64,000 nt of DNA, from contig NZ_CP117866.1 in NCBI RefSeq assembly GCF_028736035.1, forward strand, positions 4,774,001 to 4,838,000, written 5' to 3'. A model generated the notes under the pieces. It saw nothing but the letters and a program-made list of their open reading frames with translations. It was not told the DNA's origin and did no database searches. The position numbers were made by a program, and so were the translations under genes. Each line of letters opens with the position of its first letter. Positions within the stretch are counted from its first letter, which is position 1. The stretch comes from Streptomyces sp. T12 (GTDB lineage Bacteria; Actinomycetota; Actinomycetes; Streptomycetales; Streptomycetaceae). Below are positions 29,460 to 40,108 of the stretch, piece after piece.

Positions 29460-30320
29460 TCACGCCTCCCGCTCCACGAACGACCGCACCCGCTCCTCGT
29501 CCAGCTCGTACACCGTCTCGTGCGCCCGGGGATCCCGCGCATGGAAGGTGTGGAACATCGGCCCCGCCGCCCCGCCCAGTTCCACCAGCGACGCCGACGC
29601 CCCGCGCACCGCGCGCTCCGTCCCGGGCGCGGACGTCAGGTCGATGCGGTTGACCACACCCGGCGTGACCCACACCGGCACCGACTCCAGCAGCCCGAAG
29701 AGCTGGAGATGGTAGTGACCGGTCAGCACGACCCGTACGTCACTCCCCCGGATCACCTCCCCCAGCTCCCCCGGGTTCCGCAGCCCGAAGTGCGACTGGG
29801 TCGCCGAGAGGGCGAGGCTGATCGGCGGGTGGTGGAAGGCGAGGACGGTGCCCCGCTCGGCGGGCTCGCTCAACACCGCGCGCAACCAGTCAAGTTGGGT
29901 CGCGCTCAGATGGCCGTACACCTTCCCCGGCACCAGCGAGTCCAGTGTCACCAGGCGTCGGCCCGCGACCGTGCTCACCGCGGCCCGCTCCGACGCCTCG
30001 GACTCCAGGACCAGCTCCGGTTCCGGGTGCCCGCTGCCCAGCACCTTCCCGAAGGCGTCCCGCTCGTCGTGGTTGCCGGTCGTGTAGAACACCGGCGCGC
30101 CCAGCCGCCGCGCGAACTCGCCCACCAGTTCCTGTACGGCCGTGTACGCCTCCACGGATCCGTCGTCGGCGATGTCCCCGGTGACGACCACCGCGTCCAC
30201 GTCCCGTTGATGCCGCAGCTCGGCGAGCATCAGGCGCAGCGAATCGGTGGCGTTGACGCCGTTCTTGTGGGGAGCGTCGGTTCGCTCGATGTGCGTGTCC
30301 GAGAGATGAAGGATCCTCAT
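29460..30320 (-). CDS. Metallophosphoesterase (cAMP phosphodiesterase-like)
   Basis: 286 residues from ATG 30320. All calcineurin-type metal motifs are present in order: LSDTHIE (5-11), VVTGDIADDG (about 45-54), TTGNHDE (about 80-86), AFHHPP (about 160), and LTGHYHLQLFG (about 198). This matches the CpdA/Rv0805-like class of bacterial phosphodiesterases, which hydrolyse cyclic nucleotides or other phosphodiesters. Cytosolic, binuclear metal centre expected. The actual substrate is not shown by sequence. It is head-to-tail with the Old Yellow Enzyme gene, 28 bases away. Confidence 0.9.
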   Translation of the reverse strand: MRILHLSDTHIERTDAPHKNGVNATDSLRLMLAELRHQRDVDAVVVTGDIADDGSVEAYTAVQELVGEFARRLGAPVFYTTGNHDERDAFGKVLGSGHPEPELVLESEASERAAVSTVAGRRLVTLDSLVPGKVYGHLSATQLDWLRAVLSEPAERGTVLAFHHPPISLALSATQSHFGLRNPGELGEVIRGSDVRVVLTGHYHLQLFGLLESVPVWVTPGVVNRIDLTSAPGTERAVRGASASLVELGGAAGPMFHTFHARDPRAHETVYELDEERVRSFVEREA

Positions 30321-30348
30321 CTCCCGGACGTTATCGCGGAGTTGACGC

Positions 30349-31476
30349 TCAGCTCAGCGTCTTCAGCGACGCGGCGTCGTACGGCTTCAGCTCGTCGAGG
30401 CGGTCGCCGAGGACCTTCGCCGCCCACTCAGGGTCCTGGAGCAGGGCGCGGCCGACGGCCACCATGTCGAACTCGTCGCGCTCCAGGCGGTCCAGGAGGT
30501 CGTCGATGCCCTTGACCGTGGAGCCCTCGCCCATGAACGCACCGATGAAGTCGCCGTCGAGGCCGACCGAGCCGACGGTGATGGTCGGCTTGCCGGTGAG
30601 CTTCTTCGTCCAGCCGGCCAGGTTGAGGTCGGAACCGTCGAACTCCGGGATCCAGTAGCGGCGGGTGGAGGCGTGGAAGGCGTCGACGCCGGCCGCGGCG
30701 AGCGGGGCGAGGATGGCGTCCAGCTCCTCGGGGGTCTCGGCGAGGCGGGCGTCGTAGGCCTCCTGCTTCCACTGCGAGTAGCGGAAGATGACCGGGAAGG
30801 ACGCGGAGACCTTCTCGCGTACGGCGGCCACGATCTCCGCCGCGAACGTCGTACGGGCCACCGGGTCGCCGCCGTACGCGTCCGTGCGGCGGTTGGTGCC
30901 CTCCCAGAGGAACTGGTCGACGAGGTAGCCGTGGGCGCCGTGGATCTCCACGCCGTCGAAGCCGATGCGCTCGGCGTCCGCGGCGGCCTGGGCGAACGCG
31001 CCGATGACGTCGTCCAGGTCGCTCTGGGTCATCGCCTTGCCGGTGGCCTCCTCGGCGCCGATGCGCAGACCGGAGGGGCCGACCGCCGGGGCGTCGGCGT
31101 AGGGCGGCCTGCCCGGCTTGCGGACCATGCCGATGTGCCAGAGCTGCGGCACGATCGTGCCGCCGCCCGCGTGCACCGCCTCGGCGACCTCGGCCCAACC
31201 CGCCAGCTGCTCCTCGCCGTGGAAGCGCGGGACGCGATCGCTCTCTCCGGCCGAGTCGTGCCCGACGTACGTGCCCTCGGTGACGATCAGGCCGACGCCG
31301 GCGGCGGCGCGGCGCGCGTAGTACGACACGACGTCCTCGCCGGGGATGCCGCCCGGGGAGAACATGCGCGTCATCGGCGCCATCGCGATGCGGTTGGGGA
31401 CGGTCAGGCCGTTGATCGTGGTCGGCCGGGACAGGATCTGGGCCGCACGGGAGGCGGAGGCGGTGGTGACGGTCAC
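30349..31476 (-). CDS. NADH:flavin oxidoreductase, Old Yellow Enzyme family
   Basis: 375 residues from GTG 31476. FMN-binding TIM barrel of the OYE family. Key segments are LTVPNRIAMAPMTRMFS, PQLWHIGMV, AFAQAAADAERIGFDGVEIHGAHGYLVDQFL with the substrate-binding His pair, RVLL-type FMN end (DMVAVGRALLQDPEWAAKV). It reduces activated alkenes with NAD(P)H; natural substrate unknown. A perfect ACCAGCTGGT palindrome lies 30 bases upstream of the start and is the likely operator. Length and motifs are complete. Confidence 0.9.
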   Translation of the reverse strand: MTVTTASASRAAQILSRPTTINGLTVPNRIAMAPMTRMFSPGGIPGEDVVSYYARRAAAGVGLIVTEGTYVGHDSAGESDRVPRFHGEEQLAGWAEVAEAVHAGGGTIVPQLWHIGMVRKPGRPPYADAPAVGPSGLRIGAEEATGKAMTQSDLDDVIGAFAQAAADAERIGFDGVEIHGAHGYLVDQFLWEGTNRRTDAYGGDPVARTTFAAEIVAAVREKVSASFPVIFRYSQWKQEAYDARLAETPEELDAILAPLAAAGVDAFHASTRRYWIPEFDGSDLNLAGWTKKLTGKPTITVGSVGLDGDFIGAFMGEGSTVKGIDDLLDRLERDEFDMVAVGRALLQDPEWAAKVLGDRLDELKPYDAASLKTLS

Positions 31477-31506
31477 GGGGAAGGCTCCTCGGGAGTGACT
31501 CTGTTA

Positions 31507-31516
31507 ACCAGCTGGT
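31507..31516. promoter_or_regulatory. ACCAGCTGGT palindrome upstream of OYE gene
   Basis: A perfect 10-bp palindrome in the sequence TTAACCAGCTGGTATG, placed where the OYE promoter should be. HxlR- and MarR-type regulators of flavin oxidoreductases often bind sites of this shape; no such regulator gene is adjacent. Confidence 0.5.
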
Positions 31517-31622
31517 ATGTGCGCGCGCATTGTTGCACCTACTGAAGAAACCACCTATGCGCTACCGCACATTCCGCATCACGCCGGGGACAGCTGTGAC
31601 CCCGGCCACGCGCAGCGCCTCA

Positions 31623-31640
31623 AAGGGGCGCGGGGAACTG
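31623..31640. repeat. Fragment of dispersed Streptomyces intergenic repeat
   Basis: AAGGGGCGCGGGGAACTG matches the left end of the repeat seen more fully at 34665-34746 and 42489-42564. It lies beside the groEL terminator in the OYE-groEL intergenic region. Confidence 0.45.
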
Positions 31641-31653
31641 CCATGGAAAACGC

Positions 31654-31697
31654 CCGAGGGCGGCACCCCCTGTCGGAACAGGGAGTGCCGCCCTCGG
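31654..31697 (-). terminator. Terminator after groEL2
   Basis: Near-perfect stem CCGAGGGCGGCACTCCCTGT with its complement around a CGG-type loop (about 19 bp of pairing), starting 38 bases beyond the groEL stop. The long GC-rich hairpin without a strong U-run is typical of Streptomyces terminators. Confidence 0.85.
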
Positions 31698-31734
31698 TAC
31701 TGACGGACCGGGTCCGAGCCTTCTTGCGAAAGAC

Positions 31735-33465
<1,731 letters not shown>

Positions 33466-33484
33466 TCACCGACCCGGTCCTTCA

Positions 33485-33511
33485 TTGTCACTCTCACCTT
33501 CAGAGTGCTAA
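33485..33511. promoter_or_regulatory. CIRCE element, start-proximal (HrcA operator)
   Basis: TTGTCACTC, 9 bases, GAGTGCTAA: one mismatch in each HrcA half-site pair against TTAGCACTC-N9-GAGTGCTAA. It is the copy nearer the groEL start (about 128 bases upstream). It is separated from the second CIRCE by exactly 9 bases. Confidence 0.85.
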
Positions 33512-33520
33512 CGCCAATGA

Positions 33521-33547
33521 TTAGCACTCGCCCCCTGCGAGTGCAAG
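33521..33547. promoter_or_regulatory. CIRCE element, upstream copy (HrcA operator)
   Basis: TTAGCACTC, 9 bases, GAGTGCAAG: the left arm is a perfect HrcA half-site and the right arm has two changes. Together with the copy at 33485-33511 it makes four half-sites with uniform 9-base spacing across 63 bases. The intergenic region 33358-33719 otherwise holds only the groEL leader and the cold shock terminator. Confidence 0.85.
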
Positions 33548-33649
33548 CGGCTCTCGGGGATCGGGCGGGGCGCTCCGCGATGCGCGAACAAGGCTCGGGC
33601 AGGGGTCCGGGCAGGCCACATGCAGGCCACGTGCGGGCGCGGGCACGGC

Positions 33650-33683
33650 GAAGGGCCCGCACCCCGGGAGGTGCGGGCCCTTC
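33650..33683 (-). terminator. Terminator after cold shock gene
   Basis: GAAGGGCCCGCACC (33650-33663) pairs perfectly with GGTGCGGGCCCTTC (33670-33683) around a 6-base loop, 37 bases past the cold shock stop codon. It separates the csp transcript from groEL2. Confidence 0.9.
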
Positions 33684-33719
33684 GAAGAAGAACGTCGCTG
33701 CTTTAAGTCGACGCGTGCT

Positions 33720-33926
33720 TCAGCTGGTCGCGAGCCGGACCATGTCCGCCTGCGGCCCCTTCTGACCCTGCGAGATCTCGAAATCGACTCGCTGGCCCTC
33801 TTCCAGGGTGCGGTACCCGTCCATCTGGATCGCGCTGTAGTGGACGAAAACATCCGCACCACCGTCGACCGCGATGAAGCCGTACCCCTTCTCCGCGTTG
33901 AACCACTTGACGGTGCCCTGAGCCAT
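33720..33926 (-). CDS. Cold shock protein (CspA family)
   Basis: 68 residues from ATG 33926 with GGGGAG 6 bases upstream. OB-fold single-strand nucleic-acid-binding protein. RNP1 is KGYGFIAV (13-20) and RNP2 is VFVHYSAIQ (26-34). It begins [13 protein letters not shown] like other actinobacterial Csps and has the conserved acidic [20 protein letters not shown] end. It acts as an RNA chaperone; Streptomyces carry several copies, and this one next to groEL2 corresponds to the SCO4295-type position (from memory). Confidence 0.95.
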
Positions 33927-34279
33927 GCCTAACTCCCCTATTACTGGCCCTTGCACAGATCCACACTTCGCGGATCCGGGTCAGACCTCACCCCCCATCG
34001 GTCGGGGGCGTGCGCCGGAACGCGTCGACCGCGGCTGAATGTATCTGCCCAACTGCCGTCTGCAACAGGTCAATCGGACGAGAAATCCGGGCACAGCCGG
34101 TCGGGAATGTGGGGACAATTCCCCTGACTTCAGGTCAAGTCGGACCTGATAAACGGAACAAAAGCCGCAAAAAACCCGCACACTTTGGCTACTTCTTGTC
34201 GGGCGGGCGGCAGAAATCAAGGGCCACCGACCCGTGAATCGGCGGCATGTTCCCCAACTGTACCTCGCTCAACCACACA

Positions 34280-34318
34280 GAATTGCCCCCTCCGCTTCTC
34301 TCACGGAGGGGGCAATTC
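34280..34318 (-). terminator. Terminator between MoaD/ThiS and cold shock genes
   Basis: GAATTGCCCCCTCCG (34280-34294) pairs perfectly over 15 bp with CGGAGGGGGCAATTC (34304-34318), flanked by A/T, so it could work in both directions. It ends the MoaD/ThiS transcript. The rest of the 33927-34368 gap, which is less GC-rich than the coding DNA, presumably holds the csp promoter and leader; no further gene was seen. Confidence 0.85.
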
Positions 34319-34368
34319 GATGAACTCTCGGTGACCGGGGTTACCGATGGTAATGATCGGTCATTCGG

Positions 34369-34644
34369 TCAGCCTCCGGCGACCGCCGGAATGATGGAGA
34401 CACCCGCGCCGTCCGGCGTCGCCGTCTCCAGCCCCTGCTCGAAACGGACGTCGTCGTCATTGACGTACACGTTGACGAACCGGCGCAGCTTGCCCTGGTC
34501 GTCGAGAACCCGGGCGGCGATCCCGGTGTGGTTCTTCTCCAGGTCGGCGATGACCTCGGCGAGGGTGCCGCCCTCGGCGCTCACTTCGGCCTGGCCACCC
34601 GTGTAGGTACGCAGGATGGTGGGGATGCGGACGTTGACGCTCAC
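34369..34644 (-). CDS. MoaD/ThiS family sulfur carrier protein
   Basis: 91 residues from GTG 34644. Ubiquitin-like beta-grasp carrier: VNVRIPTILRTYTGG start, GTLAEVIADLEKNHTGIAARV, FVNVYVNDDDVRFEQGLET, and the obligatory C-terminal Gly-Gly in IIPAVAGG. The terminal glycine would be adenylated and converted to a thiocarboxylate that donates sulfur. Like M. tuberculosis CysO it stands outside molybdopterin and thiamin clusters. Its neighbour upstream is the thrC-like gene, 122 bases away on the same strand and under a SAM-I riboswitch, suggesting sulfur delivery in methionine/homocysteine synthesis rather than Moco. Confidence 0.9.
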   Translation of the reverse strand: MSVNVRIPTILRTYTGGQAEVSAEGGTLAEVIADLEKNHTGIAARVLDDQGKLRRFVNVYVNDDDVRFEQGLETATPDGAGVSIIPAVAGG

Positions 34645-34664
34645 GTATGACCTCCGGTCAGGTA

Positions 34665-34746
34665 GTCGCCCCTAGGGGCGCGGGGCTGTGTGGAATTTGC
34701 GACTACCGCCGCGTGGGCACGACCAGCCCCCCACGGCCCGCAGACG
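34665..34746. repeat. Dispersed Streptomyces intergenic repeat, copy in moaD-thrC gap
   Basis: A sequence beginning AGGGGCGCGGGGCTGTG, with ACTACCGCCGCGTGGG and CACGACCAGCC, ending near CACGGCCCGCAG, fills most of the thrC-MoaD intergenic space. The same ordered blocks recur at 42489-42564 at roughly 75 percent identity by eye, and the left end at 31623. This type of repeat is common between genes in Streptomyces. Confidence 0.7.
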
Positions 34747-34766
34747 AAAATCTATGGGACAGGCCC

Positions 34767-36053
34767 CTAGACGAGACCCGCCTCGCGGAACGAGTCGAGG
34801 CTGGGCCGAATGGTCGCAGTCAGCCCCGTACCGGCCACCGCATCCAGCGTCTTGAGACCATCACCGGTGTTGAGAACGACCGTCGTCTTCGTCGGGTCGA
34901 GGACACCGTTCTCGATCAGCTTGCGCGCCACACCCACGGTCACACCGCCGGCGGTCTCCGCGAAGATGCCCTCGGTCCGGGCAAGGACCTTGATCGCGTC
35001 CACGACCTGCTCGTCCGTCACGTCCTCCACCGCACCGCCGGTACGGCGAGCGATGTCCAGGACGTAAGGACCATCCGCCGGGTTGCCGATCGCCAGCGAC
35101 TTGGCGATCGTGTTCGGCTTCTGCGGGCGGACCACGTCGTGCCCCGCCTTGTACGCGGTCGACACCGGCGAGCAGCCCTCGGCCTGCGCACCGAAGATCT
35201 TGTACGGCTTGTCCTCGACGAGCCCGAGCTTGATCAGCTCCTGCAGCCCCTTGTCGATCTTCGTGAGCTGCGAGCCGGAGGCGATCGGCACGACGAGCTG
35301 GTCGGGCAGCTGCCAGCCGAGCTGCTCGCAGATCTCGTACGCCAGGGTCTTGGAGCCCTCGGCGTAGTACGGCCGCAGGTTGACGTTGACGAAGCCCCAG
35401 CCCTCACCGGCCGGGTCGCCGATCAGCTCGGAGCAGAAACGGTTCACGTCGTCGTAGTTGCCCTCGATGCCGACGAGCTCGCCGCCGTACACCGCGGCCA
35501 TGACGACCTTGCCCTGCTCCAGGTCGTGCGGGATGAACACGCAGGAGCGGAAGCCGGCGCGGGCCGCCGCGGCGCCCACCGCACCGGCGAGGTTGCCGGT
35601 CGAGGAGCACGACAGGGTGGTGAAGCCGAAGGCGCGGGCGGCCTCCAGGGCCTGGGCGACGACACGGTCCTTGAAGGAGTGCGTCGGGTTGCCGGAGTCG
35701 TCCTTGATGAAGAGCTTGCCGGCGTCGACGCCCAGCTCACGCGCGAGGTTGTCGGCCTTGACGAGCTTGGTCCAGCCGGGGTTGATGTTCGGCTTGGTGG
35801 CCACGTCGGCCGGGACGGGCAGGAGCGGCGCGTAGCGCCAGATGTTCGCGGGACCCGCCTCGATCTGCTTGCGGAGCTCCTCGGCGTCGTAGGCCGAGAA
35901 GTCGTACGCGATCTCCAGCGGGCCGAAACACTCCTCGCACGCGAAGACCGGTCCGAGGGGCACCCGGTGACCGCACTCGCGGCAGGACAGCGCCGCGGCG
36001 GGACCAAGGTCTACGGTGGATTCGGTGGTGCTTGCAACAGTCTGCACAGCCAT
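34767..36053 (-). CDS. thrC: Threonine synthase-like PLP enzyme under SAM riboswitch (possible homocysteine synthase)
   Basis: 428 residues from ATG 36053. PLP fold type II enzyme. An N-terminal zinc ribbon has Cys24, Cys27, Cys39 and Cys42; the PLP lysine is Lys128 in NPTHSFKDRVV; SSTGNLAGAVGAAAA and IASGSQLTKIDKG form the phosphate and cofactor loops. Threonine synthase converts O-phosphohomoserine to threonine. Three facts here argue for a sulfur role: a SAM-I riboswitch controls it, a lone MoaD/ThiS carrier follows it, and the CysM-CysO pair of mycobacteria is a close analogy with O-phosphoserine. A homocysteine synthase using O-phosphohomoserine and carrier thiocarboxylate is therefore plausible. 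I recall a Streptomyces report of such a pair (MetM/MetO) but cannot verify it. Annotation as thrC remains the default. Confidence 0.85.
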   Translation of the reverse strand: MAVQTVASTTESTVDLGPAAALSCRECGHRVPLGPVFACEECFGPLEIAYDFSAYDAEELRKQIEAGPANIWRYAPLLPVPADVATKPNINPGWTKLVKADNLARELGVDAGKLFIKDDSGNPTHSFKDRVVAQALEAARAFGFTTLSCSSTGNLAGAVGAAAARAGFRSCVFIPHDLEQGKVVMAAVYGGELVGIEGNYDDVNRFCSELIGDPAGEGWGFVNVNLRPYYAEGSKTLAYEICEQLGWQLPDQLVVPIASGSQLTKIDKGLQELIKLGLVEDKPYKIFGAQAEGCSPVSTAYKAGHDVVRPQKPNTIAKSLAIGNPADGPYVLDIARRTGGAVEDVTDEQVVDAIKVLARTEGIFAETAGGVTVGVARKLIENGVLDPTKTTVVLNTGDGLKTLDAVAGTGLTATIRPSLDSFREAGLV

Positions 36054-36073
36054 GTGAGGCGAGGCCCTTTCTC

Positions 36074-36228
36074 CTCATCTTCCTCACGACGCATCTCGCC
36101 GTGAGACGGATTTGGCACCTTCCCTAGCCGGGAGCCTCGCGGAGACGATCGACAGTGATCGCTACGAGAACCGACTGGAGGGTTGCCGGGGCTTCATCGG
36201 GCCGTTTCCCTCTGCCCCTCTGGATGAG
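36074..36228 (-). promoter_or_regulatory. SAM-I (S-box) riboswitch upstream of thrC-like gene
   Basis: On the minus strand, reading from 36228, the conserved S-box elements appear in order. They are CTCATCCAGAGGGGCAGAGG (P1/P2), GGCCCGATGAAGCCCCGGCA (P2/P3 core), GGTGCCAAATCC (P3/J3-4 region), a P4 hairpin CACGGCGAGATGCGTCGTG, and AAGATGAG closing P1 with the first CTCATC. The last three bases of P1 overlap GGAG of the ribosome binding region, about 20 bases before the ATG. SAM binding would therefore be expected to hide the ribosome binding site, a translational off switch. The remaining space to 36363 contains the divergent promoters. Confidence 0.93.
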
Positions 36229-36363
36229 CTGTATTCGGTTGTTAACGGCGGTTGACCCCGGACATGCGATGGTCATCCGCGTTGTTCAAGACTGTAACCG
36301 ACGGCCAGGACAGTTGAGAGAGTCCGTCCGAACCGCGAGACAAACCGTGAGGAGCCGCCAACC

Positions 36364-37308
36364 GTGCTGGAAGAAGTCGAGCGCTGGCTGAGCACCCGCT
36401 CCTGGTCCGTGACCGATCGCCCGCTCCACCAGATCCTGGCCGCCAAGCAGCGTACGGGCCAGTCGGTCTCCGTCGTGCTGCCGGCGCTCAACGAGGAGGA
36501 GACGGTCGGCGACATCGTCGCGATCATCCGTCACGACCTCATGCAGCAGGTTCCGCTGGTCGACGAGATCGTCGTTGTCGACTCGGGATCCACCGACCGC
36601 ACCTCCGAGGTGGCCGCCGCCGCGGGCGCCCGGGTCGTCCACCGCGACGACATCCTGCCCCGCATCCCGACCGTGCCCGGCAAGGGCGAGGTGCTGTGGC
36701 GCTCGCTGCTCGTCACGCGCGGCGACATCGTCTGCTTCATCGACGCGGACCTGAGGGAGTTCAAGTCCGACTTCGTCTCCGGCATCGTGGGCCCGCTGCT
36801 GACCGACCCCGAGGTCGATCTGGTGAAGGGCATGTACGACCGCCCCCTCGGCGGCGCGGCCGGGCAGGGCGGCCGGGTGACCGAGCTGATGGCGCGCCCG
36901 CTGCTGAACATGCACTGGCCGCAGCTGGCCGGTTTCGTGCAGCCGCTCGGCGGCGAGTACGCGGCCCGCCGCTCGCTGCTGGAACAGCTCCCCTTCCCCG
37001 TGGGCTACGGCGTCGAGCTCGGCATGCTGGTCGACGCCCTGCACCTGGTGGGCCTCGACGCCCTGGCCCAGGTGGACGTGGGCGTCCGCAAGCACCGCCA
37101 CCAGGACGGACAGGCCCTTGGCCGGATGTCCGCCGCGATCTACCGCACGGCCCAGCTGCGGCTGGCCCGCGGGCACCTCATCCGCCCCTCCCTCACCCAG
37201 TTCGAGCGGGGCGAGGACGGGTTCGAGCCGCGCACGTTCTCCGTGGACACGGAAGAGCGGCCGCCGATGGCGGAGATCGCGGAGTACGCCTCCCGCAAGG
37301 TGGCTTGA
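36364..37308 (+). CDS. gpgS: Glucosyl-3-phosphoglycerate synthase
   Basis: 314 residues from GTG 36364 with GAGGAG 12 bases upstream. GT-A glycosyltransferase (GT81 type) that makes glucosyl-3-phosphoglycerate, precursor of glucosylglycerate, a compatible solute and seed of methylglucose polysaccharide. Visible: VVLPALNEEETVGD (38-50), VVDSGSTDRTSE (71-82), nucleotide/metal DAD at 127-129, and late HRHQDGQALGRMS typical for this family. It lies directly before otsA on the same strand, 108 bases apart. The locus thus handles UDP-glucose-derived solutes. Length is normal. Confidence 0.9.
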   Translation: MLEEVERWLSTRSWSVTDRPLHQILAAKQRTGQSVSVVLPALNEEETVGDIVAIIRHDLMQQVPLVDEIVVVDSGSTDRTSEVAAAAGARVVHRDDILPRIPTVPGKGEVLWRSLLVTRGDIVCFIDADLREFKSDFVSGIVGPLLTDPEVDLVKGMYDRPLGGAAGQGGRVTELMARPLLNMHWPQLAGFVQPLGGEYAARRSLLEQLPFPVGYGVELGMLVDALHLVGLDALAQVDVGVRKHRHQDGQALGRMSAAIYRTAQLRLARGHLIRPSLTQFERGEDGFEPRTFSVDTEERPPMAEIAEYASRKVA

Positions 37309-37416
37309 AGGTGGCTTGAATGCGGCCTGAAGCTCGTCCGGAACGTCGTATACGGCCCCTGCCAGTGAGGTGAACCGCACGTTTGAGCGGTTCCGGGCCG
37401 GGCTAGGTTGAGGCGT

Positions 37417-38835
37417 ATGGCTTCCACGCAGGATGCGCAGGGTGCTGCCAAGGTGCTGGTCGCGTCGAACCGCGGTCCGGTCTCGTACGAGGTGCGCGAC
37501 GACGGCTCGCTGCACTCCAAGCGGGGCGGCGGCGGAGTCGTCTCCGGACTGTCGGCGATCGGGCCGGACGCGGGCGCCCTGTGGGTGTGCTCCGCGCTGT
37601 CCGAGGGGGACCGGGAGGCGGTGCGGCGCGGGGTCGGCGAGGGCGGCGTGCTGATGCTGGACATCCCGGCCGACGTGCACGCCGACGCCTACAACGGCAT
37701 CGCGAACTCGGTCCTCTGGTTCGTCCACCACATGCTCTACCAGACGCCGCTGGAGCCGGTCTTCGACGCCGAGTTCCAGCGGCAGTGGGCGTCGTACGAG
37801 GCGTACAACCGGGCCTTCGCCGAGGCGTTGGCCGGGCAGGCGGCGCCGGGTGCGGCGGTGCTGGTGCAGGACTATCACCTGTGCCTGGTGCCGGGGATGC
37901 TGCGCGAGCTGCGCCCTGACCTCCGTATCGGCCACTTCTCGCACACGCCGTGGGCGCCGCCGGAGTACTTCCGGATGCTGCCCGACGATGTCGCCGGCGA
38001 GGTGCTGCGCGGGATGCTCGGCGCGGACCGGCTGGGGTTCCTCACCCGCCGGTGGGCCGACGCGTTCGAGGCGTGCTGTGCTCAGTTCGCCGGCGGGCTG
38101 CGGGGTACGCGGGTCGGGGTGCACGGGCTGGGGGCGGACGCGGACTTCCTGCGGACGCGTTCGCATGAGTCCGACGTGGCCGAGCGGATGGCGGTGCTGA
38201 GGGGTGAGATCGGTGTGGCGCCGGACGGGAGCGCCCGCAAGACCGTCGTGCGGGTCGACCGGACCGAGCTGTCCAAGAACATCGTGCGGGGCCTGCTGGC
38301 GTACCGGCAGCTGCTCGACGACCACCCCGAGTGGCGTGAGCGGGTGGTGCACGTGGCGTTCGCGTATCCGTCGCGGCAGGACCTGGCGGTCTACCGGGAG
38401 TACACGGCGGAGGTCCAGCGCCTGGCCGAGGAGATCAACTCCCGGTACGGGACGCCGGGTTGGACCCCGGTGGTCCTCCACGTCAAGGACGACTTCGCCC
38501 GCTCGCTGGCCGCGTACCGGCTGGCGGACGTGGCCCTGGTCAACCCCATCCGGGACGGCATGAACCTCGTCGCGAAGGAGGTGCCGGTCGTCTCCGACGA
38601 GGGGTGCGCGCTGGTGCTGTCGCGGGAGGCGGGGGCCTTCGCGGAGCTGGGCGAGGACGCGATCGCCGTGAACCCGTACGACGTGATGGACACGGCGCGG
38701 GCGCTGCACGAGGCGTTGTCCATGGGGCCGGAGGAGCGGGCGGAACGGTCGAAGAGGCTGACTGCGGCCGCGACCGCGCTCCCCCCGGCCCAGTGGTTCC
38801 TGGACCAGCTGCATGCGCTGGACGAGGAGAACTAG
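37417..38835 (+). CDS. otsA: Alpha,alpha-trehalose-phosphate synthase
   Basis: 472 residues from ATG 37417 (the frame stays open upstream to 37408). GT20 retaining glycosyltransferase that makes trehalose-6-phosphate from a sugar nucleotide and glucose-6-phosphate. Evidence: N-terminal VASNRGPVSYEV, GGVVSGLS, WFVHHMLYQTP, VQDYHLCLVPGMLRE, IGHFSHTPWAPPEYFRMLP, VDRTELSKNIVRGLLAYRQL, and the late NPIRDGMNLVAKE. OtsB is encoded convergently just after it. Trehalose protects Streptomyces spores and hyphae. Confidence 0.95.
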   Translation: MASTQDAQGAAKVLVASNRGPVSYEVRDDGSLHSKRGGGGVVSGLSAIGPDAGALWVCSALSEGDREAVRRGVGEGGVLMLDIPADVHADAYNGIANSVLWFVHHMLYQTPLEPVFDAEFQRQWASYEAYNRAFAEALAGQAAPGAAVLVQDYHLCLVPGMLRELRPDLRIGHFSHTPWAPPEYFRMLPDDVAGEVLRGMLGADRLGFLTRRWADAFEACCAQFAGGLRGTRVGVHGLGADADFLRTRSHESDVAERMAVLRGEIGVAPDGSARKTVVRVDRTELSKNIVRGLLAYRQLLDDHPEWRERVVHVAFAYPSRQDLAVYREYTAEVQRLAEEINSRYGTPGWTPVVLHVKDDFARSLAAYRLADVALVNPIRDGMNLVAKEVPVVSDEGCALVLSREAGAFAELGEDAIAVNPYDVMDTARALHEALSMGPEERAERSKRLTAAATALPPAQWFLDQLHALDEEN

Positions 38836-38868
38836 GAGGGCCAGGAGGGCCAGGCGGGCCAGGAGGCT
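38836..38868. repeat. GGGCCAGGA repeat between otsA and otsB
   Basis: Three and a half units of the type GGAGGGCCA/GGCGGGCCA separate the convergent otsA and otsB genes. The run may act in termination or be replication slippage; it is too short to judge. Confidence 0.5.
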
Positions 38869-38870
38869 GG

Positions 38871-39707
38871 TCAGCCCGTCTGGGCGGCGATCGCCTGCAG
38901 CAGCCGTACGACCCCCTGCGGGCCGTCCACCACCACGTCCGCCTTCTTCGACAGCTCGGTGACCTCCTCGCTGCCGCTGCAGACCAGGAGGCCCGGGGTG
39001 CCGTCGGAGCGGAGTTCGTCGACGGCGGCGTAGGCGGGGAGGTCGCCGAGGTCGTCGCCGGCGTAGAGGACGGACCCGGCGCCGAGTTCGCGGACGTACT
39101 CGCTCAGCGCCACGCCCTTGTCCATGCCGGGCGGGCGGAGTTCGAGGACCATGCGCCCCGGTTCGACGATGAGGCCGTTGCGGGTGGCGAGGTCGGTGAG
39201 GGGCTCGCGGAGGGCGTCGAAGGTGCCCTGGGGGTCGGCCGCGCGGCGCGTGTGCACGGCGACGGCATGCCCCTTGTCCTCGATCCATGCGCCCTGGGTG
39301 CTTGCGAGGAGGCCCGGCAGTTCGGCGCGGACGGCTGCGACGCCGGGGTGGGGGTCGGGTGCGGTGACCTCACCGCTGACCGCGTCCCAGCGCTCGGCGC
39401 CGTAGTGCCCGAGCACGACGAGGTGCTCCAGCCCCGGGACCCCGGCGAATCCGCCGTACTGGACGGCGACGTCGGCCGGACGGCCGGTGATCACCGCCAC
39501 GGAGGCCACCTTCGGGGCGAGCGCGGCGAGCGCCGGCAGCGCGTCGGGGTGGGCGCGGGCCTTCTCGGGGTCGGGCACGATCGGCGCGAGGGTGCCGTCG
39601 AAGTCGAGGGCGACGAGTGCGCGGGCGGGGCGGGCGAGGATGGCCGCGAGGCCGTCGCGACCGGGCTGGGTCGCGGGGGTCGGCAGGGGGTCCGGTGAGT
39701 TACCCAT
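38871..39707 (-). CDS. otsB: Trehalose-6-phosphate phosphatase
   Basis: 278 residues from ATG 39707. HAD phosphatase removing phosphate from trehalose-6-phosphate. Motif I is ALDFDGTLAPIV with Asp35 and Asp37, motif II AVITGRP (about 75), the family-specific GHYGAERW (about 98), ELRPPGMDKGVALSEYVRE with the conserved lysine, and motif IV YAGDDLGDLPAY. It completes the otsA pathway from the opposite strand. Confidence 0.95.
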   Translation of the reverse strand: MGNSPDPLPTPATQPGRDGLAAILARPARALVALDFDGTLAPIVPDPEKARAHPDALPALAALAPKVASVAVITGRPADVAVQYGGFAGVPGLEHLVVLGHYGAERWDAVSGEVTAPDPHPGVAAVRAELPGLLASTQGAWIEDKGHAVAVHTRRAADPQGTFDALREPLTDLATRNGLIVEPGRMVLELRPPGMDKGVALSEYVRELGAGSVLYAGDDLGDLPAYAAVDELRSDGTPGLLVCSGSEEVTELSKKADVVVDGPQGVVRLLQAIAAQTG

Positions 39708-39750
39708 ACGACGACCCTATCCACGCGGGGTCGCGCATATCCCTGTGTCT

Positions 39751-39776
39751 CGCCCCCGCCAGGGGGCTCCGCCCCC
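39751..39776. terminator. GC hairpin in otsB-DUF3263 gap
   Basis: GGGGGC (39762-39767), TCC, GCCCCC (39771-39776), with an adjacent CGCCCCCGCC that can pair in the other register. Such CGCCCCC/GGGGGC hairpins are common between Streptomyces genes and may terminate transcription of the DUF3263-side gene or be a repeat element. Confidence 0.4.
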
Positions 39777-39803
39777 AGGAACGGGAGACCCGGCCCGTAC
39801 CCG

Positions 39804-40073
39804 TCACCGCTCCCCCCGCCGCGCCTCCCGCACCCGCCGCAGCCGGTTCACCGTCACCGGATCGTGGGCCAGAGCCCGGGCGTCGTCCAGCAGGGCGTTC
39901 AACAGCTGGTAGTAGCGGACAGGGGCCAGGCCCAGTTCCTCGCGTATGGCCCGCTCCTTCGCGCCGGGACCCGCAAAGCCCCGGCGTTCCAGGGCGAGGA
40001 TGGCCTGCTCGCGCTCCGCGAGGACGGGGGCGGGGGCGGGGGCGGCGACGTCCTCAGGCTGGTCCTGGCTCAT
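39804..40073 (-). CDS. DUF3263 domain protein
   Basis: 89 residues from ATG 40073. Short helical protein: LAEREQAILALERRGFAGPG, KERAIREELGLAPVRYYQ, NALLDDARALAHDPVTVNRLRR. This matches DUF3263, an actinobacterial family with a sigma-factor-like or HTH helix pattern (the AKERAIREELGL segment resembles a recognition helix region). A DNA-binding role is inferred only. It is in the same direction as the sugar-binding lipoprotein gene, which starts upstream and ends 35 bases before it. Confidence 0.85.
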   Translation of the reverse strand: MSQDQPEDVAAPAPAPVLAEREQAILALERRGFAGPGAKERAIREELGLAPVRYYQLLNALLDDARALAHDPVTVNRLRRVREARRGER

Positions 40074-40108
40074 GTGTCGCACCGTAACGCCCCCCACCGA
40101 CAAGCGAC

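Follow-up and report, generated by a model that had tools for sequence, protein, structure and literature searches.

A Streptomyces metM-metO operon behind a SAM-I riboswitch, predicted to make homocysteine from O-phosphohomoserine and a carrier thiocarboxylate

Why should a gene annotated as threonine synthase lie directly behind a SAM-I riboswitch, and why should a gene for a small sulfur carrier follow it? The locus lies in a 64-kb stretch of a Streptomyces genome of 11.46 Mb in two contigs, and the whole of this stretch is referred to here as the window. The initial annotation had proposed that the enzyme makes homocysteine from O-phosphohomoserine and the thiocarboxylate of the carrier, repressed by SAM, and had mentioned, without a citation, a MetM/MetO pair in Streptomyces. 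Such a pair exists: the accessible part of PMC12172450 cites Hasebe et al. 2024 (Appl Environ Microbiol 90:e01247-24) for the identification of the homocysteine synthase MetM in Streptomyces, reports a SAM riboswitch upstream of metM in S. albulus and names the metO gene of that species. The route is already known, having been published in 2024, and is not new. We assign the locus, with a probability of about 0.93, to a Streptomyces metM-metO operon making homocysteine from O-phosphohomoserine and MetO thiocarboxylate under SAM-I control, and on sequence grounds it is very probably an ortholog of the described MetM/MetO system, from which the activity of the present copy is predicted. According to its abstract, the 2024 description reportedly has O-phosphohomoserine as the substrate, with sulfur donated by the MetO thiocarboxylate.

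All elements of the locus are on the minus strand, in the order of transcription riboswitch (36230-36072), thrC-like gene (36053-34767) and ThiS/MoaD-like carrier gene (34644-34369). The SAM-I (S-box) aptamer (36072..36230, minus) has an expanded P3 and a 3' end that reaches an SD-like sequence, and it ends 18 nt from the ATG of the thrC-like gene at 36053, as expected from the S-box that had been noticed before this start codon. The thrC-like gene, metM (34767..36053, minus), encodes a 428-aa PLP enzyme resembling threonine synthase, matched by TIGR00260 and PALP and predicted to be an O-phosphohomoserine-dependent homocysteine synthase. A gap of 122 nt separates it from metO (34369..34644, minus), encoding a 91-aa sulfur carrier of the ThiS/MoaD fold (PF02597) with a Gly-Gly end, so that the description of a Gly-Gly-ending carrier 3' of the thrC-like gene and on the same strand is borne out by an ORF ending in VAGG and a stop codon. 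The eight neighbouring ORFs scanned (29460-40103) encode a phosphoesterase, an FMN oxidoreductase, GroEL, a cold-shock protein, a glycosyltransferase 2, a GT20 protein, a trehalose phosphatase and a DUF3263 protein; in agreement with the initial annotation, no molybdopterin or thiamin gene is among them, and the window contains none of the genome's other ThiS-family or ThiF-family matches.

The riboswitch assignment rests on an RF00162 match of 77.3 bits (E 2e-16; gathering score 44.4), which spans model positions 1-108, the full model, and has a long insertion within hairpin P3. No other Rfam match in the window reaches its gathering score, and no other SAM-I element was reported in the genome, in a search that scored 150 of 683 first-look candidates. 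The best anti-SD match in the window, TGAGGAGA, shares 6 nt with the 3' end of the aptamer and is 16 nt away from the ATG, a long spacing for an SD, and the SD-like purine stretch GAGGAGAAAGG with its spacer to the ATG occupies 36054..36077 (minus), its first part lying within the 3' strand of aptamer P1. The overlap of the S-box with the ribosome binding region claimed earlier is thus present and recurs elsewhere: the best anti-SD match and the aptamer share at least 1 nt in 69 of 71 leaders, comprising 40 from other genera, 30 from loci of the genus and that of the window, with the start codons of the other leaders set by a mechanical rule and the start of L229 doubtful. The motif GATGAG falls within the 9 nt at the 3' end of the aptamer in 68 of these 71 leaders, TTTT was found in none of the 71 within 60 nt past the aptamer, and the spacing from SD to ATG is again long in the leaders of the genus, at 13-17 nt. 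Combined, the overlap, the GATGAG motif and the absence of TTTT are more in keeping with P1 masking the SD than with an intrinsic terminator, suggesting that control of metM is probably translational rather than transcriptional. A free fold of the leader did not return the canonical aptamer and was of modest stability (z -1.79, with 12 of 200 shuffles as good). Separately, a second SAM-I element away from metM is present in two of 101 genomes of the genus, at G093:C1:7659388-7659529 and G098:C1:234716-234857.

The arrangement is conserved throughout the genus and widely within the class. A metM match is present in 101 of 101 genomes of the genus at 77-100% identity, and a SAM-I element in 100 of them, each within 127 nt upstream of the metM match when the two tables are compared by eye; in the remaining genome, G070, metM begins at base 12 of its contig. 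Among the best 80 of at least 587 confirmed relatives, which constitute our named loci (79 titled Streptomyces and one Actinobacteria bacterium), the nearest named relative of MetM is that of Streptomyces regalis, at 98% identity. These 80 do not include S. albulus. Outside the genus, one locus was chosen manually for each of 40 genera out of the 66 other genera with a match (67 including the genus at the centre of the survey), and SAM-I lies upstream of metM in all 40. By tblastn, metO is found within 1 kb downstream of metM in 35 of these 40 genera and in 80 of the 80 named loci (best 80 of at least 587), for a total of 115 of 120. The carrier had initially been called an orphan, a term that is not apt for a gene so regularly found downstream of metM in the loci examined.

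MetM scores 268.9 bits against TIGR00260 (thrC), above the equivalog cut-off of 167.1, and 223.6 bits against Pfam PALP, and its NCBIfam name is threonine synthase. The genome, however, has a separate ThrC of 352 aa (G000:C1:7311199-7312182; TIGR00260 321.5 bits), 37% identical to MetM, which is flanked on its two sides by hom (PRK06349 560.8 bits, cut-off 205) and thrB (TIGR00191 217.1 bits, cut-off 168.25). A search for a second thrC in a hom-thrB cluster, proposed earlier as a check, is therefore positive. Motifs were compared in 121 MetM sequences, consisting of the 80 named loci (best 80 of at least 587), the 40 other genera and the window, with one ThrC only, that of this genome, as the yardstick. 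While SFKDR and STGN are kept in 121 of 121, as in threonine synthase, the STGNTS, GNAGN and TGNGLK motifs of the genome's ThrC occur in none, their places being taken by ASGSQ in 108 and TGDGLK in 113 of the 121 sequences, and an N-terminal four-Cys motif not shared with ThrC is present in every one. GNAGN-type loops bind the PLP phosphate in this fold. Thus, judged from these sequences, MetM is most likely not the threonine synthase of the genome. The genome also encodes, at L005:1342-2691 (minus), a protein that scores above the cut-off of the cysteate synthase model TIGR03844 (356.9 versus 324.9 bits); cysteate synthase is a relative of ThrC, usually of methanogen coenzyme M synthesis.

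The distribution of MetX bears on whether such an enzyme is needed. No convincing MetX was found in this genome, the best model match scoring 30.2 bits over 53 model positions and none reaching E 1e-40. MetX was called at E 1e-40, since none of the 296 genomes and none of the 14 controls passes the curated MetX cut-off of 500 bits, and the MetX matches listed at E 1e-40 score about 400-449 bits; MetM, in the class survey, was called at E 1e-90 or better. Among the 296 genomes of the class, 91 have both MetM and MetX, 98 have MetM only, 102 have MetX only and five have neither, a compensation with a Fisher p of 9e-19 when the kinship of the genomes is ignored. This pattern fits a role of MetM in homocysteine synthesis, although both genes often occur together, and their co-occurrence in 91 of 296 indicates that MetM is not confined to genomes that lack MetX. 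The 31 genomes of the genus in this sample divide into 24 with MetM and without MetX and seven with both. The five class genomes with neither gene at the thresholds used are G107, G110, G165, G167 and G344. Within the genome studied, PF01053 has 11 matches, of which four are above the cut-off and three of these are near full length, one passing PRK07811 (cystathionine gamma-synthase), another PRK07582 (cystathionine gamma-lyase) and the third no model among the 25 shown. With these three near-full-length enzymes, the genome may possess an alternative homocysteine route.

The carrier, MetO, ends in PAVAGG followed by a stop and scores 61.4 bits against Pfam ThiS PF02597. Its best match among solved structures, at E 7.4e-31, is 3dwg chain C, which is CysO and is listed under the name 9.5 kDa culture filtrate antigen cfp10A. 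Four ThiS-family carriers are present in the genome: MetO, a CysO beside CysM and Mec, and, read by eye, one ThiS-like and one MoaD-like protein. The Mec-CysO-CysM cluster is separate from metM-metO, with CysO at G000:C1:3882949-3883206 flanked by Mec and CysM. Thus MetO, unlike the CysO of the CysM pathway, is not located beside Mec and CysM, a place held by the other carrier. The genome's CysM scores above the cysKM subfamily cut-off and below the CysM equivalog cut-offs, and its CysO (L238:3441-3719, minus) ends in Gly-Gly-Met-Ala, an end that would require trimming ahead of thiocarboxylation. In mycobacteria, MoeZR produces the CysO thiocarboxylate and Mec hydrolyses CysO-cysteine (PMC3227635, accessible part). 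MoeZ is present in this genome (PRK07878 756.9 bits, cut-off 647) and, by analogy, would charge MetO.

In the predicted pathway, MoeZ would convert the Gly-Gly end of MetO to a thiocarboxylate by adenylation and sulfuration, and MetM would take O-phosphohomoserine, supplied by ThrB, on its PLP and eliminate phosphate. With sulfur taken from MetO-COSH, MetM would then form homocysteine, which would be methylated to methionine. When SAM is abundant, the SAM-I aptamer would fold, its P1 helix would sequester some of the SD-like sequence, and metM would be translated less.

The carrier end is not uniform among the 115 loci with metO (including the best 80 of at least 587 relatives). Gly-Gly ends are found in 93, Gly-Gly-Cys in 20, Gly-Gly-Ala in one and Gly-Gly-Ala-Gly in one. 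The Gly-Gly-Cys ends belong to L121, L150, L163, L165, L166, L168, L169, L170, L198, L205-L209, L211, L214, L216, L219, L223 and L225, and in all 20 the stop codon directly follows the single Cys codon. Loss of a stop codon was considered as the source of this end and set aside: the codon past the stop is itself a stop in none of the 93 Gly-Gly loci, as against Cys and then stop in 20 of 20. A three-base CTG duplication that converts GGCTGA to GGC-TGC-TGA would be a better fit. For a Gly-Gly-Cys MetO to carry a thiocarboxylate on its second Gly, the Cys would have to be removed. Mec is the obvious candidate for this trimming by analogy, because it hydrolyses CysO-cysteine and the Gly-Gly-Cys end resembles that adduct. 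A Prok-JAB match, the Mec-like family, was found in 41 of 41 genomes tested, this one included; consequently, having a Mec-like gene does not distinguish one carrier end from another. The accessible text of PMC3227635 makes no mention of Gly-Gly-Cys ends, which may still be reported elsewhere.

Variation extends to presence of the carrier gene. In five of the 40 other genera (L218, L220, L222, L229 and L237), metO was not found downstream of metM, while SAM-I and metM are retained, and the best MetO-like gene in these genera is no more than 0.25 kb away from a Prok-JAB gene, a CysO position as compared by eye. Four of these five have MetX, compared with 15 of the 35 genera with metO, a difference that is not significant (Fisher p 0.17). 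We tentatively suggest that the carrier side of the MetM system varies, the Gly-Gly-Cys form (20 of 115) possibly being a pro-form that mimics CysO-cysteine and is trimmed by Mec, and the genera without metO possibly sharing CysO between cysteine and homocysteine synthesis. Neither Gly-Gly-Cys MetO ends nor metO-less genera appear in the accessible part of PMC12172450.

Related systems place these observations in context. A system of Wolinella succinogenes reportedly employs an enzyme of the O-acetylhomoserine sulfhydrylase type and a carrier that requires C-terminal trimming, and so differs from MetM/MetO. It is alike, by the title of Krishnamoorthy and Begley 2011 (a reference in PMC5764234), in being a protein-thiocarboxylate-dependent methionine synthesis. 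The CysM/CysO/Mec system of Mycobacterium, as given in the accessible part of PMC3227635, likewise combines a PLP enzyme, an O-phospho amino acid substrate and a MoeZ-made thiocarboxylate of a Gly-Gly carrier, whereas the enzyme here is ThrC-like rather than CysM-like, is predicted to yield homocysteine and is under SAM-I control, and a Mec-CysO-CysM cluster exists separately. Compared with Streptomyces MetM/MetO as described in the available portion of PMC12172450, no difference was found at this locus, which has the same ThrC-like enzyme, upstream SAM riboswitch and adjacent sulfur-carrier gene and, by its nearest named relatives, comes from the same genus. An RF00162 riboswitch had been placed in 2021 before SLIV_16930-SLIV_16925 of S. 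lividans, under threonine biosynthesis (PMC8079986, accessible part); we infer that these genes are metM-metO. The main text of the review PMC13257386 contains neither Hasebe nor sulfur carrier, and no thrC case from Streptomyces was found in the accessible part of PMC12452182.

The name carried by the gene raises the question of whether MetM is simply a second, SAM-regulated threonine synthase, with the carrier an unrelated bystander. Its score above the TIGR00260 cut-off, the fact that five of the six solved sequences it matches at E 1e-10 are threonine synthases, and the S. lividans table, which puts what is very likely the same riboswitch and operon under threonine biosynthesis in the accessible part of PMC8079986, would agree with this, but a canonical thrC is present between hom and thrB, the motifs of MetM are changed relative to that ThrC, and SAM-I control, the linkage of metO in 115 of 120 loci, the MetM/MetX compensation and the published MetM work (PMC12172450, in part) all argue the other way, rendering this explanation highly improbable. 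Synthesis of homocysteine under repression by SAM, as proposed in the initial annotation, is supported by the second ThrC, the lack of a convincing MetX, the riboswitch, MetO and the published MetM, and is the predicted activity of this copy.

Two variants are compatible with that reading. Threonine synthase and threonine deaminase activities are described for a Microcystis homolog, 51.6% identical to S. albulus MetM, in the accessible part of PMC12172450, whose authors judge this homolog not to act fully as MetM; this case is the chief reason for not reading activity directly from homology. MetM could similarly be bifunctional, a homocysteine synthase with MetO-COSH and, as a side activity, a threonine synthase or threonine deaminase, which we consider unlikely in a genome with no evident need for it, as it already encodes ThrC together with an ammonia-lyase for threonine (TIGR01127 434.9 bits, cut-off 378.75). 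The five genera with riboswitch and metM but without adjacent metO, their best MetO-like gene being close to Prok-JAB, would be explained if MetM also accepted free sulfide or the CysO carrier and MetO were non-essential. We are doubtful of this, as metO lies downstream in every one of the named loci and in most other genera surveyed, which points to a dedicated partner in Streptomyces.

As a SAM-repressed homocysteine synthase, MetM would explain both the SAM riboswitch on a gene routinely named threonine synthase and how Streptomyces without MetX, 24 of the 31 genus genomes sampled, could produce homocysteine. Variation in the carrier end and the missing metO raise the further question of whether two cysteine-pathway proteins, Mec and CysO, also serve the methionine pathway; if so, one carrier, CysO, would feed both cysteine and homocysteine synthesis in some genera.
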